Of a DNA stretch of 64,000 bases, positions 2,175 to 59,315 are shown one piece after another. The stretch's first letter is position 1. Each line of letters begins with the position of its first letter. The stretch is taken from NCBI RefSeq assembly GCF_020905375.1, contig NZ_JAJJBU010000023.1:62001-126000 (forward strand). The letters are read 5' to 3'. The position numbers and the translations under genes are program-made. Below the pieces are notes generated by a model that did no database searches, was not told the DNA's origin, and saw only the letters and a program-made list of their open reading frames with translations. This stretch comes from Arthrobacter cryoconiti (lineage in GTDB: Bacteria; Actinomycetota; Actinomycetes; Actinomycetales; Micrococcaceae).

Positions 2175-2930
2175 TTAGAGAACCTTGGCGAGGAACTCTT
2201 GGAGACGAGGCTGCTGAGCATTGGAGAAGATTTCCTCCGGAGTACCTTGCTCGCAGATTACCCCACCGTCCATAAAGATGACCCGGTCTGCAACTTCACG
2301 GGCGAAGCCCATCTCGTGGGTCACCACGACCATTGTCATTCCTTCAGCAGCTAGATCACGAATCACTTGGAGCACTTCCCCGACCATCTCGGGATCCAAG
2401 GCACTCGTGGCCTCGTCAAAGAGCATGATCCCTGGACTCATGGCCAGAGCCCGGGCAATGGCCACACGTTGCTTCTGGCCTCCGGACAGTGAGGCCGGGC
2501 GCGCATCAGCCTTCTCAGCAAGATCCACTCGTTTCAAGAGGTCCATGCCCTGAGCACGTGCTCCGGCTTTGTCCAACTTCTTCAATTCCACCGGTGCCAA
2601 CATAATGTTTTGCAAAGCGCTCATGTGCGGGAACAGATTGAAATGCTGGAATACCATGCCAATGTGCTGGCGCACGGCATTGAGATCAACGGTGGGGTCT
2701 GTGAGGTCGTAGCCGTCCACCGTGACGGATCCTGCTGTGATGTCCTCTAATTTGTTCAGGCAACGCAGAAAGGTTGATTTGCCGGAACCGGATGGCCCGA
2801 TCACGCAAACAACCTCACCCTCAGCAATCTCAACGTTAATGCCTTTCAGGACCTCGTTGGCACCGAAGGACTTCTTCAGGTCGCGCACTATGATTTTTGC
2901 TGGTGCGTCGTTTTCTGTGGTGGCGCTCAT
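2175..2930 (-). CDS. glnQ: Polar amino acid (glutamine-type) ABC transporter ATPase
   Basis: Cytoplasmic ATPase that drives the membrane permease encoded just upstream. In its 251 residues, Walker A GPSGSGKS is at 45-52, the Q-loop at [10 protein letters not shown] (about 93-102), signature LSGGQKQR at 148-155, Walker B IMLFDE at 168-173 and the switch histidine in VVTHEMGF near 207. Its ATG overlaps the stop of the upstream binding protein-permease gene by 4 bp (ATGA), so the two are translationally coupled. The symbol follows family similarity; glutamine as substrate is inferred from the surrounding glnA, glsA, glnE and glnA2. Glutamate or another polar amino acid is possible. Confidence 0.93.
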
Positions 2931-4450
2931 TTGTTGAACTTCCTATCCAGAACGTTGGAGAGTTGTGTCAAAACGAAGATCACGATGAAGTACAGGGCAG
3001 CCACGATCAGCAATGTCTCACCGGTACGGAAGTTGGCCGCGTAAATCTGCTGGCCTTGGTACGTCAGTTCTGCAAAGCCAATGACCGCTAGCAAGGAAGT
3101 GTCCTTAAGGGTGATGACGAACTGGTTGATGAAAGACGGCGTCATGATCTTGATGGCTTGTGGTACTACCACCCGGCGCATGGAAGTGACATACCCTAGA
3201 CCCAAACTGCGGCTAGCTTCCAGCTGGCCCGGGTCCACTGACTGGATTCCACCGCGGACTATCTCCGTCATGTAGGCGCCAGCATTCAAGCTCAGTGTGA
3301 TGACACCCGCGGAGAGCACGTCAAGCGGCTGACCCGTTAGCTGGGGAAGACCAAAATAGAAGAAGAATGCCTGCACCAGCAGAGGTGTTCCCCGGAATAT
3401 TTCTACGTAAATACTGGCAACAATCCGAAGTATCCGACTCTCACCGACTTTGAAGAATCCAAAGACGACGCCCAAGACCAACGCGATTATCAGCGACAAC
3501 CCAGTGGCCAGCAGCGTCATGCCCAGGCCCTTCATAAGGGCCGGAAAACTGTTCACCAGGAGATCAAAGAAGCTTGTTTGTTTGGCTGTTTCCGGTGCAG
3601 AGAGGTACTTATCGAGGATTTTCTGATAGTCCCCGTTAGCCTTCAGATTAGCCAGTCCCGCGTCGAACGCGGCGAGAAGGTCGCTATTTTGCGCCTTGTT
3701 GACTGCGAATCCGTAGGAACTTCCCGCTTCTTTGGGAGTGACAATCTTCAAACCATTATTTTGGCTGACACCGTAGGCCAACACCGGGTAGTCGTCAAAG
3801 ACTGCCACCGAATTTCCAGCCTTGACATCGTCATAGATCGTGGCGGAGTCGGCAAGTGCTTTGACAGTAAACCCATTTGCATCCTTGATGGAGTTAGCAA
3901 AGGTTTCGCCTTCGGTGCCTCTCTTTACGGCAACCGTTTTCCCTTTAAGATCCGCGTAGGTTTTGACCGTCTCGTTGTCCTTGGCCACAGCCATCTGTAC
4001 GCCGGAGTCGAAATAGGGGTCTGAGAAGTCAAAAATGAGCTTGCGCTTATCCGTGATGGACATGCCCGCGATCACGCCTTGCACCTGGTTGGATTGCAGC
4101 GCCTGCAGTGCAGCATCGAATCCAAGGGACTTGATGTCTACGCTGAAGCCTTGATTCTCGGCAATAGCGTGCAAGAGATCCATGTCGATTCCGACAAGGT
4201 CACCACCGCCATTACGAAACTCAAACGGGGCAAAAGTGGTGTCCGTAGCCACAGCAAAAGTTTTCCCTTTGACGTCGGTGGCGGCGGCCACCGCCATTGG
4301 CACCTCCACACCTTTGACAGACTGGGTAGAGGAGGCGGCAGGCATCACGGCGGCAGAGGCCGTGCCGGCACCTAGGAAAAGGGCCACGATGGTCAAGGTG
4401 GCGCCGAGCGCCGCCCTCCCACGCCTTGTGGCCAAACGGTAAACGTTCAA
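2927..4450 (-). CDS. glnHP: Fused substrate-binding protein and permease of a glutamine-type ABC transporter
   Basis: A 507-residue fusion. An N-terminal hydrophobic segment (about 14-34) anchors or exports a type 3 solute-binding domain (about 60-285, with [10 protein letters not shown] and DGxL-type features), followed by a polar amino acid permease domain (about 300-500) with several membrane helices. The permease carries an EAA-type loop, [22 protein letters not shown] in part, which docks onto the ATPase. The start is a TTG at 4450, the only start before the hydrophobic segment, with a weak GA-rich ribosome site. Binding domain and permease are separate in many bacteria and fused in others. 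With the downstream ATPase it forms a complete importer. A gap of about 300 bases with a terminator separates it from the repeat gene upstream, so it probably has its own promoter. Confidence 0.92.
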
Positions 4451-4669
4451 GATCTTCGAACCATCCTTAGATTTTTTCGTTCAAACTGTAGGTGGCCACG
4501 TGCCGGAGCACCGTGTGCGTATATTCCAGAGGGCGCGCCGAAGTCGCACGCAATCAAACGGGACGCGGCCATTTGCAAGTATGTCAGTACTAGATTCTAT
4601 GCGCTACGCCGGACGTTGCCGTCCCCTGCATATGCGTAAGCCGTTAGGCGAGTACTTGGACCTTGGAAC

Positions 4670-4707
4670 AAGAAATGGTCAGCCGCAATTGCGACTGACC
4701 ATTTCTT
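4670..4707 (-). terminator. Long perfect hairpin ending the peptide-repeat transcript
   Basis: Arms AAGAAATGGTCAG (4670-4682) and CTGACCATTTCTT (4695-4707) pair over 13 bp. After a single mismatch the apical CGCAATTGCG (4684-4693) can close further. The hairpin starts 51 bases after the stop of the repeat gene on its strand and lies upstream of the transporter operon. It therefore separates the two transcription units. Confidence 0.8.
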
Positions 4708-4757
4708 TGTAACTATTTCAACCACTTACCGGACAAAACCCAAGTAGGTGCAAATTT

Positions 4758-5918
4758 CTATGCTTTACCCATCGTGCTCGTTGACACGGAGTAAGGCCAG
4801 ATCCACGGCACCAACTGAGACTTAGCCTGCGTCGGAGCAGAGTAAGGCCAGATCCACGGCACCAACTGAGACTTAGCCTGCGTCGGAGCAGAGTAAGGCC
4901 AGATCCACGGCACCAACTGAGACTTAGCCTGCGTCGGAGCAGAGTAAGGCCAGATCCACGGCACCAACTGAGACTTAGCCTGCGTCGGAGCAGAGTAAGG
5001 CCAGATCCACGGCACCAACTGAGACTTAGCCTGCGTCGGAGCAGAGTAAGGCCAGATCCACGGCACCAACTGAGACTTAGCCTGCGTCGGAGCAGAGTAA
5101 GGCCAGATCCACGGCACCAACTGAGACTTAGCCTGCGTCGGAGCAGAGTAAGGCCAGATCCACGGCACCAACTGAGACTTAGCCTGCGTCGGAGCAGAGT
5201 AAGGCCAGATCCACGGCACCAACTGAGACTTAGCCTGCGTCGGAGCAGAGTAAGGCCAGATCCACGGCACCAACTGAGACTTAGCCTGCGTCGGAGCAGA
5301 GTAAGGCCAGATCCACGGCACCAACTGAGACTTAGCCTGCGTCGGAGCAGAGTAAGGCCAGATCCACGGCACCAACTGAGACTTAGCCTGCGTCGGAGCA
5401 GAGTAAGGCCAGATCCACGGCACCAACTGAGACTTAGCCTGCGTCGGAGCAGAGTAAGGCCAGATCCACGGCACCAACTGAGACTTAGCCTGCGTCGGAG
5501 CAGAGTAAGGCCAGATCCACGGCACCAACTGAGACTTAGCCTGCGTCGGAGCAGAGTAAGGCCAGATCCACGGCACCAACTGAGACTTAGCCTGCGTCGG
5601 AGCAGAGTAAGGCCAGATCCACGGCACCAACTGAGACTTAGCCTGCGTCGGAGCAGAGTAAGGCCAGATCCACGGCACCAACTGTGACTCTGTCCGCGAC
5701 TGCGCCGGAGCGGAGTAAGGCCAGATCCACGGCACCAACTGTGACTCTGTCCGCGACTGCGCAGCTGTCTGGTCGATAGTGACAGCCGAAACAGTTGTTT
5801 GGGACGAAGCCGAAGCGCCGCCCACTCCGACGAACATTGCCAAAATGGCCAATACTGCGCCGAAGACAGAAACGGTACTTACGTGTTTGCCAATCGTTGT
5901 CTTGCTAAATTGCTTCAT
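4758..5918 (-). CDS. Secreted tandem Trp/Pro-rich peptide-repeat protein, no recognised family
   Basis: A 386-residue protein from ATG 5918. Residues 1-37 form a textbook Sec signal peptide: basic start MKQFSKTTIGKH, a hydrophobic core around 15-33, and a predicted AxA cut after A37. A short leader (38-52) precedes 19 copies of a unit with invariant core QLVPWIWPYS (residues 53-377). Two N-terminal units are 19 residues (AQSRTES spacer) and 17 use the TQAKS spacer. The tail is VSTSTMGKA. I prefer 5918 over an in-frame ATG at 5981 because it is preceded by GGGGAA and gives a normal signal peptide. The product is Cys-free and mildly cationic (one Lys per 17-mer). I know no named family. The layout resembles multicopy peptide precursors such as yeast alpha-factor, and the PWIWPY stretch recalls the PWxWP motif of indolicidin and tritrpticin, but this is resemblance only. 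A structural or surface role is equally open. Confidence 0.85.
   Translation of the reverse strand: MKQFSKTTIGKHVSTVSVFGAVLAILAMFVGVGGASASSQTTVSAVTIDQTAAQSRTESQLVPWIWPYSAPAQSRTESQLVPWIWPYSAPTQAKSQLVPWIWPYSAPTQAKSQLVPWIWPYSAPTQAKSQLVPWIWPYSAPTQAKSQLVPWIWPYSAPTQAKSQLVPWIWPYSAPTQAKSQLVPWIWPYSAPTQAKSQLVPWIWPYSAPTQAKSQLVPWIWPYSAPTQAKSQLVPWIWPYSAPTQAKSQLVPWIWPYSAPTQAKSQLVPWIWPYSAPTQAKSQLVPWIWPYSAPTQAKSQLVPWIWPYSAPTQAKSQLVPWIWPYSAPTQAKSQLVPWIWPYSAPTQAKSQLVPWIWPYSAPTQAKSQLVPWIWPYSVSTSTMGKA
4788..5762 (-). repeat. Coding minisatellite: 19 tandem units, mostly a 51-bp period
   Basis: The period is 51 bp (17 codons) through 17 units and 57 bp (19 codons) between the first two. Read by eye, the internal 51-bp units are identical, including synonymous positions. 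The C-terminal unit diverges at its last codons and the two N-terminal units differ in the spacer. All units stay in frame. The near-absence of silent changes points to recent amplification or ongoing homogenisation by slippage or recombination. Confidence 0.97.
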
Positions 5919-5940
5919 ATTTTCCCCAGGGAAGTAGGTA

Positions 5941-6148: not shown

Positions 6149-9100
6149 CTAACCGTAAAACAACCGCTCAAAAACTGCCCGTGCCCGCCGGGTAAGACCC
6201 AAATAGTCTTCCTCGAAGGCGGCCGCATTTCCTGGCTCGTAACCGCACCATCTAGCTACCGCCTCGAGGTCTCCACGAGCCGACGGTAAAAGGTCCGATG
6301 ACTTCCCGGTCCAGATGACATTGGCATTGCGCACTTTGCCCGCCAGTCGCCAAGCCGCCTCCAATAATTCGGCGTCGTCTTCCTCCACCAAGCCCAAGTC
6401 ACGGGCCACGTGCAGCGCCTGCATCGTGGACTGAGTTTGCAGTCCAACGTGATCATGGGCGTGCTGAAGCTGCCATAGTTGTACCAACCACTCCACATCG
6501 CTGAGTCCGCCGCGTCCCAGCTTTACATGGCGGGCGGGGTCCGCGCCGCGGGGTAGGCGTTCAGACTCCATCCTCGCTTTCAGACGCTTAATCTCCCGAA
6601 GGTCGCTCTCAGAGATGAACGTCGGGTACCGCACCGGATTAGCCATCGTCACAAAGTCAGCAGCCAAATCATCGGATCCGGCCAGGGGGCGGGCTCGGAG
6701 AAGAGCCTGTGCCTCCCATGCAGAGGACCATCTCGCGTAATACTCCCGGTACGCGTCCAAGGAACGGACCAGTGGTCCGTTCTTACCTTCGGGGCGCAAG
6801 TCCGCATCGACGCTCAGAACACGTTCGGCAACGATTGCGGGGCGGACCGGCTGTGTCAGCATGGCAGTCAGTTTTGCCACGATTGCGCGGGCCTGCTGGG
6901 TAGCAGCATCCGACGCCGGCGCACCATCTTCAAAAACCCCTTCTGATGACTCGATCTGGCGATGGACGAACAAGACGTCCGCATCAGATCCATAGCCGAT
7001 CTCGCGTCCACCTTGGCGCCCCATAGCCACCACTAGAACACGAGCCAGCGGAGGTTCGTCGGCATAAACTTCCGCCTCCGCTACCAGGAGGGCCCCCAGG
7101 ATGGCGGCCCTATCGGCATCGCTTAAGGCTGCTGAGACTTGGTCTTGCGTCAACAATCCCGAACAATCCGCAATGGCAATACGCAAAATCTCACGCTGAC
7201 GGATCAACCTGATCAACCGGATGGCATCCCCCGATTGTGGGTGACGTGACATCTTTGATTGAATTTCGGCCCACTGTGCATCAAACGTCAGCGGCACCAA
7301 TTCCTTGTCACTCCCAAACCAAGCCGTCGCTTCTGGCGATACGACTAACAGGTCCGTGACCAAACGGGAGCTGGAGAGGACGTGGCAGAGACGTTCCGCA
7401 GCCGCCTGGTGATCTCGAAGCATGCCCAGGTACCAATGCGAAGTTCCCAGAGCCTCGCTCACACGACGGAACGCGAGCAGTCCGGCGTCGGGGTCCACTC
7501 CGTCGGCCAACCAGCCCAGTAGCACGGGCAGTAGCTGCCGCTGCAAGGCAGCCCGCCGGCTTACGCCTGCGGTAAGGGCTTCAATATGACGTTGCGCACC
7601 TACCGTGTCCCGGTAGCCCAATGCGGCCAACCGGGCCCGGGCAGTATCCGTGGTCAGTGCGAGGTCCGCTGCACTCAAGTGGGCAGCTGTGGCCAGAATA
7701 GGCCGGTAGAAAATACGCTCATGCAAGGCAGTGACCTCGCGCTTCACTTTCCCCCAATCCTTCAGAAGAGCCTCAGCGCTGGGCCGCTTTATACTCAGAG
7801 GGCCAGCCACCGCACTGGCCAACGCACGCAATTGCTCCGGCGCAGTTGGCATGACATGGGTACGGCGCATATGGACCAGTTGGATCCTATGCTCCAGGAC
7901 TCTCAAATACCGGTAGTCCGCGTCAAGTGCCCCAGCATCGCTCCGACCAATGAAGCCGGCTTTCATGAGCGCAGCGATGGCTCCTGTGGTGGACTTAACC
8001 CGGATCGATTCGTCATTCTTAGCGTGCACTAGCTGCAGAAGCTGTACAGAGAACTCCACGTCGCGCAGCCCTCCTTTCCCCAGTTTAAGCTGGCGACCAG
8101 CCTCTTCCTGGCGAATGTTGGAGGTGACGCGGCGGCGCATCGCCTGCACAGATGCCACAAACCCGTCCCGCTCACTGCAGGCCCAGATCAGCGGCGCCAC
8201 CCCGCGTTCGAACCGCTCCCCCAATTCTGCGTCCCCAGCAATGCAACGGGCCTTTAGAAGTGCCTGAAATTCCCAGTCGTGGGCCCAACGGTGGTAGTAG
8301 CGCAAAAAAGAGTCCAAGGTGCGCACCAAGGGCCCGTCTTTTCCTTCGGGACGCAAATTGGCATCAACTTCCCACAGCCCGGGTTCACGTTCCGGCGAAT
8401 AAATGGTCTGGGAGATAGCCGAGGCAAGAGCGTTGCCTATAGTTACAGCCTTTGCCTCGTCCACCTCAAAACGTTCTCCGACGACTTCCGTGTCAGCTTC
8501 TTGCCCCGCCGTGTCAATGACATATATGACGTCGACGTCGGAAATGTAGTTCAGTTCGCGAGCCCCACATTTGCCCATACCGATGACTGCTAATTTGATA
8601 GCGGCCACTTCTTCAGGCGGAAATTGTTCAGCGATTTCTGCCCTGGCCACGGACAATGCTGCTTCAAGAGCCGCCGCTGCGAGATCCGCCAACTCTGCAC
8701 CCACTAGAGGCATGACGTCTTCCGGTGACGCCGCACAAAGGTCCCGAATGGCCAGCTGTGCTAAGTGACGCCGGTAGCGGGTACGCAACGCGATCCGCGC
8801 TTCCGTGCCTTTCAAGGCTGCCACGGGAGTATCCGAAGACGGGTCAGCGCCCACCGATTCCAACAGCGAGTCCCGCAGGGCCCGTGCAGGCGTTGCCAAC
8901 GGCTCCGCCGCAATCGTCACGTCAAGAACGTCAAGATGTTCAGGATGTCGGATTAAAAACTCAGCCAGAGCTTCCGATGCACCCAGAAGCCGAAACAAGG
9001 CTTCATTAGGGAGTTGTTCGCCCGGGGCGGAGCCAAGTACCGCAAGTTTTTCCCTCGCTTCGGGAACCGCACTAAGAAGTCTGACCAGCGACTGAACGGC

Positions 9101-9244
9101 TAGATCTGGGTCGTTGGCGAGCTTCATGGCCTGCAAAAGCCAGGTTTGGTCGAGTCCTGACAGCTCCCGAAAGCCTAGGAATCTTTCACTCTTTTCCAGG
9201 TCAGAGAAACCATTGCTAATCAGAATTCGAGTCAAGGAACTCAT
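6149..9244 (-). CDS. glnE: Glutamine synthetase adenylyltransferase / deadenylylase
   Basis: Bifunctional enzyme that attaches AMP to, or removes it from, the regulatory tyrosine of glutamine synthetase in response to nitrogen status. In 1031 residues two nucleotidyltransferase domains are visible. The N-terminal one has GMGKCGARELNYISDVD at 222-238. The C-terminal one, in the last third, has GREIGYGSDADVLFV. Both keep the paired acidic residues that bind metal. It lies 8 bases downstream of glnA2 and is almost certainly cotranscribed with it. Its likely target is the LYELPPEE tyrosine of the glnA product at the window start. The gene is full length and no defect is seen. Confidence 0.97.
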   Translation of the reverse strand: MSSLTRILISNGFSDLEKSERFLGFRELSGLDQTWLLQAMKLANDPDLAVQSLVRLLSAVPEAREKLAVLGSAPGEQLPNEALFRLLGASEALAEFLIRHPEHLDVLDVTIAAEPLATPARALRDSLLESVGADPSSDTPVAALKGTEARIALRTRYRRHLAQLAIRDLCAASPEDVMPLVGAELADLAAAALEAALSVARAEIAEQFPPEEVAAIKLAVIGMGKCGARELNYISDVDVIYVIDTAGQEADTEVVGERFEVDEAKAVTIGNALASAISQTIYSPEREPGLWEVDANLRPEGKDGPLVRTLDSFLRYYHRWAHDWEFQALLKARCIAGDAELGERFERGVAPLIWACSERDGFVASVQAMRRRVTSNIRQEEAGRQLKLGKGGLRDVEFSVQLLQLVHAKNDESIRVKSTTGAIAALMKAGFIGRSDAGALDADYRYLRVLEHRIQLVHMRRTHVMPTAPEQLRALASAVAGPLSIKRPSAEALLKDWGKVKREVTALHERIFYRPILATAAHLSAADLALTTDTARARLAALGYRDTVGAQRHIEALTAGVSRRAALQRQLLPVLLGWLADGVDPDAGLLAFRRVSEALGTSHWYLGMLRDHQAAAERLCHVLSSSRLVTDLLVVSPEATAWFGSDKELVPLTFDAQWAEIQSKMSRHPQSGDAIRLIRLIRQREILRIAIADCSGLLTQDQVSAALSDADRAAILGALLVAEAEVYADEPPLARVLVVAMGRQGGREIGYGSDADVLFVHRQIESSEGVFEDGAPASDAATQQARAIVAKLTAMLTQPVRPAIVAERVLSVDADLRPEGKNGPLVRSLDAYREYYARWSSAWEAQALLRARPLAGSDDLAADFVTMANPVRYPTFISESDLREIKRLKARMESERLPRGADPARHVKLGRGGLSDVEWLVQLWQLQHAHDHVGLQTQSTMQALHVARDLGLVEEDDAELLEAAWRLAGKVRNANVIWTGKSSDLLPSARGDLEAVARWCGYEPGNAAAFEEDYLGLTRRARAVFERLFYG

Positions 9245-57839: not shown

Positions 57840-59315
57840 CACTAGGGCCGCCAAACTTTTCACGGCACCCCTAGTCGCTGGACGTAGCTTCGCGAGCTCC
57901 ACGCGCGAGCCTTCTGCCAGATGTTTGTCGTATGGGATCCGGAGAACGTTGTGGACGCGGGATTTGAAGTGTTCCTCAATCTGGTTGATGTCCACTTGAG
58001 TTTCTCCCCCGGACATATTGATAACAACTATGGCGTTCGCAACCAGGTCCTTACGGCCGTGGGCTTCCAGCCAAGACAGCGTCTCCGAGGCAAGTCGAGC
58101 CTCGTCCACGCTTCCCCCAGACACCAATACCACTGCGTCCGCTTTCTCCAGCGTGCCCTTCATAACAGAGTGCACCATGCCCGTCCCGGAGTCCGTGAGC
58201 ACAATCGAGTAGTACTTGCTCAAAATATCTGTCACTGCACGGTAGTCGGAATCGTCAAAGGCTTGGGCCACGGCCGGATCGGTATCACTGGCCAAGATGT
58301 CTAGACGCGACCCGTCCCGAGCCACGTACTCACACAACTGCGAGAATGTGGTGACATCGAATCTGTCCTTGACCAGGTTGCGCGCTGTATAGTCAGCGCT
58401 CCCCGGGGATCGGTCTGAAAGCGTGCCACGGTCAGGGTTGGCATCCATGGCGATGACCCTGTCCTCGCGAATGTCGGCCAGGACCATTCCCAGCAATGTG
58501 GTGACGGTCGTCTTTCCGACTCCACCCTTGCGTGAGAGCACCGGGACGTAGCGGGTGTGGTTACCCAACCGTGAAGCAATCAGGTTATCTTGTGCACGCT
58601 CCAAACGGACCTTATCCGAATCTCCCACGTTCACGGCCCCAAACGTCACCCTGTACAAGAGTCGGCGCCAACCGTTAACCGGTGCTGCCGCCACCTTGGA
58701 TAAAAGTCGATCACTCGTTAGTGCTGCGGCCGGCTCTGGGCCGTCCTCACGCTGACGGCGCGGGCTCGTCAATTCTTGAGCCACACCCGTCCCCGGATGC
58801 ACCACCGAATGCGTCACCGGAGCGAATCCTGGGACTGGCGGAAAAACGGTCGAATCAACCGGCGCTGAGGCATGTTCGGTTGACACAGGCGCAGAGGGCG
58901 CCACAGCAGGGACGATGGCATTGACTGCACCGGTGAATGCTGGATCCACTGTGGCCCCTTGAAGGTCAAGACGATCCAGGGTGACGGCAGCGGGACCGGA
59001 CGTGACCGTCATGACGGGCACGTACGCAGACGCATCTTTGCGCGCTTCCTTGCCACCTTCGCCAGCGCTGTCGAGCTCAGCCTCGCCAGCGTTCTCGCTG
59101 GAGGCTTGCAACCCTGCCTTGGCAGAATCTACGAACTTGGCAGAATCAACGAACGTGGCAGAATCAACCGATTCAACAGTTTCGACTTTTTTGTCTTTTT
59201 CGACCTTGTCGTCTGTTTCCGCGGTTTCGGCGGCCGCTACGGAATCCGCAGGTGCCTCAAAAGGCGCAGGGGCAGCATCCTCGGGGGTTGCCGGCGTGCT
59301 GTTCTTGTTTGCCAT
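57816..59315 (-). CDS. MinD/ParA-like ATPase with long disordered N-terminal region
   Basis: A 499-residue protein from ATG 59315 (MANKNSTPA, GTGGAG upstream). Residues 1-215 are Ala/Glu/Val/Pro-rich and disordered. They include a seven-residue tandem repeat, VDSATFVDSAKFVDSAK in outline, that is imperfect in DNA (21-bp unit). The ATPase domain (about 245-499) has the deviant Walker A LSRKGGVGKTTVTTLLG, VIAMDANPDRGTLSDR and the SIVLTDSGTGMVHSVM switch region. Similar proteins are annotated in actinobacteria as chromosome partitioning, MinD-like or type VII secretion associated (EspI-like). No partner gene is seen here. Not the chromosomal ParA itself, which may be the protein starting at 63548. 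Confidence 0.88.
   Translation of the reverse strand: MANKNSTPATPEDAAPAPFEAPADSVAAAETAETDDKVEKDKKVETVESVDSATFVDSAKFVDSAKAGLQASSENAGEAELDSAGEGGKEARKDASAYVPVMTVTSGPAAVTLDRLDLQGATVDPAFTGAVNAIVPAVAPSAPVSTEHASAPVDSTVFPPVPGFAPVTHSVVHPGTGVAQELTSPRRQREDGPEPAAALTSDRLLSKVAAAPVNGWRRLLYRVTFGAVNVGDSDKVRLERAQDNLIASRLGNHTRYVPVLSRKGGVGKTTVTTLLGMVLADIREDRVIAMDANPDRGTLSDRSPGSADYTARNLVKDRFDVTTFSQLCEYVARDGSRLDILASDTDPAVAQAFDDSDYRAVTDILSKYYSIVLTDSGTGMVHSVMKGTLEKADAVVLVSGGSVDEARLASETLSWLEAHGRKDLVANAIVVINMSGGETQVDINQIEEHFKSRVHNVLRIPYDKHLAEGSRVELAKLRPATRGAVKSLAALVVAELAKS

Follow-up and report, generated by a model that had tools for sequence, protein, structure and literature searches.

In PlcR-PapR-type RRNPP systems of the Bacillota, an exported and processed peptide re-enters the cell and binds a cytoplasmic HTH-TPR regulator; the Rap class is not known to contain an HTH. 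In the SHP/Rgg systems of streptococci, the gene for a small hydrophobic peptide adjoins the regulator gene, often in divergent orientation, and to our knowledge the SHPs comprise one peptide, with no tandem copies. Repeated cores within a secreted precursor are found in the yeast alpha-factor and plant lyciumin precursors, and the peptides indolicidin and tritrpticin carry a strong positive charge.

Intracellular peptide pheromones of the RRNPP type have been described as a trait of the Bacillota, and the same source states that signals in the Actinomycetota are typically small molecules, that the RRNPP detector screen covered Firmicutes and viruses only, and that the strict criteria call for an adjacent propeptide of 10-100 aa (PMC10075063). 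In the RRNPPA systems of the Bacillales the pheromone is encoded downstream of the receptor, and a term search of this paper on RRNPPA evolution did not return the word Actinobacteria (PMC9765709). Tandem pheromone copies, up to 8 in one precursor, are known from Rap-Phr systems (PMC11343458). A review of actinobacterial quorum sensing mentions cyclic or modified peptides and butyrolactones in general, and under Arthrobacter names LuxR-type domains alone (PMC4748050); signalling by peptides is thus in itself nothing new in the Actinomycetota, and novelty is claimed here for the linear, tandem, HTH-TPR-linked kind only. For Micrococcus luteus, one study reports that evidence of a dedicated competence peptide was lacking (PMC12849477). 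A literature search, carried out without most subscription journals and preprints, found no described RRNPP-like system in the Actinomycetota and, for the cores, only unrelated papers.

The DNA analysed here (the window) is a stretch of 64,000 nucleotides (G000:C16:62001-126000) from a draft assembly of Arthrobacter cryoconiti (57 contigs, 3.6 Mb). The gene under study is an ORF on the minus strand (5918..4758) that has an ATG start, is preceded by a putative ribosome-binding site read by eye (GGGG, 5924..5927, minus strand) and encodes a secreted-type protein of 386 aa with tandem WIWP repeats. Its signal-peptide region (residues 1-37; 5808..5918), delimited by eye, consists of a basic N-terminus, a hydrophobic core and the residues ASA at positions 35-37. 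A leader (residues 38-58; 5745..5807) runs from there to the first SQLVP and is followed by 19 tandem units with the core WIWPYS (4761..5744). The array, as delimited by Tandem Repeats Finder (period 51, 18.7 copies, 98% matches, score 1827) and unit comparison, contains 51-mers of which 16 of 19 are identical at the DNA level; WIWP recurs every 17 residues, with a first gap of 19. The copy number may be off, since the assembly is a draft and the array of about 1 kb is nearly perfect. A preliminary description of this DNA had reported a secreted protein of 19 Trp/Pro copies with no Cys, and this account was borne out, the signal-like N-terminus by eye and the lack of Cys for the mature part, which also is without His. 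The mass of 1971 Da that it gave for one 17-mer was reproduced (1971.025), and its 15-residue leader had to be corrected to 21 residues. Elsewhere in the window, Tandem Repeats Finder located two short 18-bp tandem repeats at 59118-59219 (2.8 and 2.3 copies).

The upstream neighbour is glnE (6149..9244, minus strand; Pfam GlnE). On the other side lies an amino-acid transporter operon on the same strand, which begins with an SBP_bac_3/BPD_transp_1 fusion gene (2927..4450; Pfam and N-terminus comparison) that has a TTG start and a second type of signal peptide, followed by an ABC transporter ATPase gene (2175..2930) that was named by eye and has orthologues at the same place. By Pfam the transporter is of the amino-acid type (SBP_bac_3) and not a peptide permease, and no protease or maturation gene was recognised adjoining the repeat gene. 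A strong hairpin, a possible terminator, separates the repeat gene from the SBP-permease gene (4672..4705, minus strand); the fold of 4655-4725 had an energy of -29.9 kcal/mol (z -6.6), and the hairpin was absent from the list of the consensus scan.

A whole-protein search at E 1e-3 detected the protein in 5 of 395 family genomes, including the window's own. A DNA pattern requiring two WIWP copies matched 10 of these 395 genomes, and on reading, seven of the 23 genomes of the genus contained a real tandem WIWP gene. One of these homologues (G263) fell below the threshold of the protein search (E 0.0425) and was found by the pattern; it shares the 17-residue unit and QLVPWIWP with the window protein. 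The pattern matches in G272 and G265 were 49-aa ORFs with no signal-like N-terminus and were judged to be chance, and that in G241 (L015/L136, genus g32), a putatively coding ORF with His/Trp repeats such as PHWIWPHNVPPHW, was judged to be unrelated. Loci were read for 30 single WIWP matches. Across the order, a WxWP pattern had matches in 45 of 297 genomes; GC-rich repeats were among the matches listed, and WIWP codons were seen by eye among those matches in the window genome only. A Paenibacillus plasmid match (32% identity) was set aside as low complexity, and a viral WIWP pattern search gave 11 stretches with a single ORF of at least two WIWP (L216), which was of another kind.

In six of the 23 genus genomes the repeat gene occupies one syntenic site between glnE and the amino-acid transporter operon. 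These genes have 19 (G000), 8 (G263), 7 (G211), 6 (G170), 5 (G076) and 4 (G270) in-frame units; an Arthrobacter wenxiniae record (L002) holds the same five-copy protein as G076. WIWP was present in 49 of 49 in-frame units, the codons for its I and P vary synonymously, and the array spacing revealed no degenerate unit. The spacers vary, as illustrated by SAPTQAKSQLVP, NAVKADQGTQLVP and SAQDSTTLAGQ, and unit length is regular within a species and ranges from 15 to 17 aa between species. Free degeneration of the repeats between species, the outcome that would have told against a peptide precursor, was not what was found. Five of the six genes retain the signal peptide and a frame that is open over their full length; in G170 (L010) a frame slip precedes the last WIWP unit, which is out of frame, and the ORF continues for more than 100 residues in the other frame. 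In a GlnE tree the six genomes fall with G182 and G255 into a weakly supported group of eight (83/61). Neither G182 nor G255 has the repeat gene or a close SBP-permease orthologue, which is present in 20 of the 23 genomes and is lacking also in G128.

The seventh tandem WIWP gene, that of G128, is not at the glnE site. It is a 48-aa ORF with a hydrophobic leader and two WIWP copies, divergent to a 465-aa ORF with HTH_31, HTH_3 and TPR matches; a DUF6541 membrane protein gene precedes this regulator, with the peptide gene between them (L135). At the matching place in G231 there are three GIWPD copies. All 23 genomes of the genus have an orthologue of the regulator, and at E 1e-40 it was detected in 53 of 129 family genomes, of which seven belong to the genus. 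In the window genome the regulator is directly preceded by an ORF that by eye resembles the DUF6541 gene (L296). Both an HTH and TPRs were above the Pfam cut-off in the regulators of G128, G000 and G084; in G070 the HTH was detected, with TPR below cut-off (E 4e-6), and in G045 the HTH only. When a profile of 14 regulators was compared with the PDB, PlcR was the best solved match spanning HTH and TPRs (positions 7-187 over 6-184, E 1.9e-5); designed PPR and alpha-solenoid proteins outscored it on a short repeat stretch. The G084 regulator had no match among plasmids at E 1e-20.

Sixty-six regulator loci were examined: the 23 in the genus and 43 of 71 listed places outside it, the 28 left out being distant, with matches that in many cases do not include the HTH part. 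Of the 66 loci, 30 have a repeat ORF next to the regulator and divergent to it, comprising 2 of 23 in the genus (G128 and G231) and 28 of 43 outside, where it was present at 25 of the 25 closest loci and at 3 of the 18 others, leaving 15 with no peptide ORF. The ORFs outside the genus contain 2-8 tandem G[NDIE]WP[DHN] cores, and a hydrophobic leader was seen in 27 of 28 (the one left unread was L281). With start codons chosen by rule and signals assigned by eye or regular expression, 23 of the 30 receptor-linked precursors are of 100 aa or less. Those of G098, G029 and the g20 genomes were found by motif scan, having been missed by the filter for small divergent ORFs. The motif scan was also applied to 220 other loci, which together span 0.97 Mb and include numerous overlapping copies and numerous loci selected by WP-like patterns; its 70 matches were the known WIWP loci with copies of the G128 locus, G241, the WxWP-pattern loci L088, L089, L091 and L099, and a two-copy ORF (L200). 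The cores are GNWPDPM (g7, g10), GNWPDP[SATF] (g20), GNWPDA/GNWPN (g28), GNWPD[SGA] (g29), GNWPDR (g16), GDWPH (g18), GEWPH (g30), GIWPNS (g19), GIWPD (G231) and WIWPD (G128), a series that, in the order we infer, would lead by single steps to WIWPN and WIWPY, the cores of the genes at the glnE site. A promoter-like element, TTGACA...TTTACAAT with a flanking TTGACA, lies between peptide and regulator genes at 22 of the 30 loci with a peptide gene and at none of the 36 without; its five background matches were all copies of the G128 locus, and these counts are a description rather than a test because these same loci served to define the expression. The presence of repeat genes beside a peptide-sensor-like regulator in the relatives suggests a peptide signalling language in the group.

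The earlier proposal of a multicopy peptide precursor was upheld in part. It gains support because the core is kept across species while the spacers change, and because the WIWP/WP tandem ORFs adjoin a PlcR-like HTH-TPR regulator. Release by cleavage after Lys, or by trimming to an N-terminal Gln, did not survive the comparison since neither is conserved across species: the G076 units and the in-frame G170 units have no Lys or Arg, so that the basic residue at every unit border expected of Lys- or dibasic-cleaved multicopy precursors is lacking in these two, and the position of Gln varies. No conserved protease motif was found in the units. Of the 30 receptor-linked precursors, 12 terminate no more than four residues from the WP core. 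Viral contigs gave ten GNWPDPM matches, and eight of these are ORFs whose last residue is that Met (L286-L289, L292-L295). The eight represent five distinct contexts, of which three have the 10-aa MRIGNWPDPM, one has MMSTIGNWPDPM and one has an ORF with a hydrophobic leader (L295). The small ORFs are leaderless, 10-12 aa long and provided with ribosome-binding sites. Stretches of two of these contigs, the two compared, resemble Arthrobacter phages, and no receptor homologue was present on the stretches examined. These ORF ends suggest the mature C-terminus of the peptide, and the lack of a leader suggests a peptide useful inside the host, where the HTH-TPR receptor would be; the tiny ORFs are candidate phage mimics of a host pheromone.

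The 5' end of the repeat gene was compared with that of the SBP-permease gene, which has a first type of signal peptide in 14 genus genomes with no glnE-site repeat gene and the second type, with a TTG start, in the six that have it. A protein HMM of the first type, built from 13 N-termini (G277 was left out, its start being unclear), scored the six repeat genes at 22.0-46.4 bits, the window gene being at 22.0, against a maximum of 9.8 bits for 117 signal-like background N-termini. From this background, sequences that overlapped the tested ones or contained WIWP, FGIGGASA, GGASAL or ATRRGRAAL had been dropped (118 left, 117 scored). Maxima for 300 shuffles of each gene were 17.6-25.7 bits, always below the gene itself (17.6 for the window gene). 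At the DNA level the first-type match, which starts at about the ribosome-binding site, reached 21.7-40.0 bits in five orthologues and a weak 5.7 bits in the window gene; the second type reached 1.7 bits at most (12-sequence target). Second-type signal peptides scored 23.6-29.5 bits against the first-type protein profile, for two of six no better than their own shuffles. The repeat gene thus has a 5' end similar to the one found on the transporter gene where the repeat gene is absent, clearly so in five orthologues and weakly in the window copy. In other genera 24 SBP loci were read; three of them were of the first type (42.2-46.4 bits), all in g28 (three of the four there), and the others scored 23.3 bits or less; the outgroup G231 also has an SBP-permease with a first-type signal peptide. 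Since the first type occurs in g28 and in the outgroup, it is likely to be older in the transporter gene and to have been taken over by the repeat gene, both direction and mechanism being inferred. In this lineage the repeats would have become attached to the ribosome-binding site and signal peptide of the adjacent amino-acid transporter gene, parted from the regulator and expanded to 19 copies.

Comparison of the sequences established that the gene has a tandem, secreted-type architecture, that its core is conserved while the spacers vary freely and that, by motif and layout, it is akin to receptor-linked propeptides. We consider it reasonably probable that the window gene encodes a secreted precursor with many copies of a short Trp-Pro signal peptide, a pheromone, in an RRNPP-like system; the peptide core probably lies near W-I-W-P-Y-S and comprises 6-10 residues. 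The calculated MH+ values of WIWPYS and WIWPYSA are 851.41 and 922.45. The precursor would be exported by Sec and cut within its spacers by extracellular or wall proteases, and the released peptide would be taken up into the cell, where it may bind, as in PlcR-PapR-type systems, the cytoplasmic HTH-TPR regulator encoded at G000:C5:12886-14106.

The array could instead be an uncut repetitive extracellular protein whose Trp-Pro repeats make multivalent contacts with wall polymers, glycans or interfaces, with copy number tuning its length. This reading would fit the lack of a conserved cleavage site and of Cys, the long array, units that are regular within a species and 15-17 aa between species, and a location by nutrient-transport genes; we regard it as unlikely, as a polymer does not explain why WIWP also occurs in the two-copy, 48-aa ORF beside the G128 regulator or why the related core GNWPDPM is found in a 10-aa ORF of viral contigs.

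Several observations argue against the pheromone reading of the window gene. It lies on contig C16, and the regulator of its genome is not adjacent but on C5. By eye, the six WIWP genes showed no operator in common with the receptor promoters, and in 15 of the 23 genus genomes the regulator is present with no tandem WIWP gene and no adjacent WP repeat ORF. The rate of the window genome's regulator relative to GlnE was 3.84, the highest of 21 compared. Raw regulator distances were smaller in genomes with WIWP genes (median 0.31 versus 0.88, p = 0.0003) and, once scaled by GlnE, the group contrast gave p = 0.08; the relatives are not independent, and the window genome is an outlier against the pheromone reading. 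The same reading is also weakened by the 15 of 43 loci outside the genus with no peptide ORF, by the lack of a conserved protease motif and of a recognised adjoining protease or maturation gene, by the size of the product and by the out-of-frame last unit in G170. The gene might be a lineage-specific leftover, a former pheromone gene that is now a neutrally expanding minisatellite. The fast-evolving regulator, the 16 identical 51-mers with the recent expansion that they indicate, the G170 frame slip and the restriction of the tandem gene to 7 of 23 genomes are in keeping with such decay, which is nevertheless quite improbable given the full-length frame and signal peptide in five of six glnE-site genes and a WIWP that persisted in all 49 in-frame units while the spacers diverged.

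An antimicrobial or other effector peptide acting on other cells would also suit an aromatic Trp-Pro core in a secreted-type, strongly amplified precursor. However, the units carry little net charge (-1 to +1 in six species) and do not have the strong positive charge of cationic Trp-rich antimicrobial peptides, no immunity, export or modification gene was recognised among the compared neighbours (of which glnE and the SBP-permease were compared with Pfam), and the receptor-linked relatives look like a signal system; an effector role is thus highly unlikely. The analogies once drawn with alpha-factor, lyciumin, indolicidin and tritrpticin failed on the same charge, on the lack of a conserved basic cut site and on the lack of a Pfam domain. 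A profile search for a known structural domain, which would have spoken against a peptide precursor, returned no Pfam family for the window protein, NCBIfam matches far below cut-off for two of three proteins, no PHROGs match for the window protein and weak ones for two homologues (best E 0.0013); a PDB match to 2e5k (E 0.37) was not significant. That the ORF is regulatory, its Trp/Pro-rich translation pauses controlling the transporter operon downstream of it and of the strong hairpin, is scarcely credible, as pausing needs no 19 copies and the relatives in other genera adjoin a regulator.

A wider form of the pheromone reading, to which we give an even chance, is that the Micrococcaceae share a Trp-Pro peptide language ([VI]GNWPDPM-like, and WIWPYS-like in Arthrobacter) of tandem propeptides and PlcR-like HTH-TPR receptors, that in one lineage the pheromone was relocated to the glnE locus, where it took over the transporter signal peptide and was amplified to 19 copies, and that phages of these hosts carry leaderless genes of 10-12 aa for the finished peptide, which would act on the receptor within the cell. 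Should this hold, the pairing of a receptor with a repeat peptide across the Micrococcaceae would open a signalling language in common bacteria, provide exact peptides for synthesis and offer both an example of gene birth through signal-peptide capture and a candidate case of phages mimicking a host pheromone.

Like the RRNPP/RRNPPA systems (PlcR-PapR, NprR-NprX, Rap-Phr), the relatives described here combine a small secreted-type propeptide gene with an adjacent gene for a cytoplasmic HTH-TPR protein. Unlike them, the host belongs to the Actinomycetota, the propeptide gene is divergent with 2-8 tandem cores (19 in the window), and the window gene is unlinked from the receptor. Its product of 386 aa also is far above the usual propeptide size of 10-100 aa, and by the strict criteria the window gene is not a member; most of its receptor-linked relatives would fit on size and adjacency. 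The pairing of a hydrophobic peptide gene with a regulator gene recalls SHP/Rgg, from which the tandem copies set it apart. As in the tandemly duplicated propeptides Phr3T and Phr105, which have several copies per precursor and are cut by extracellular proteases (PMC11343458), the peptide is repeated within one product, but with another core and in 19 copies as opposed to up to 8.
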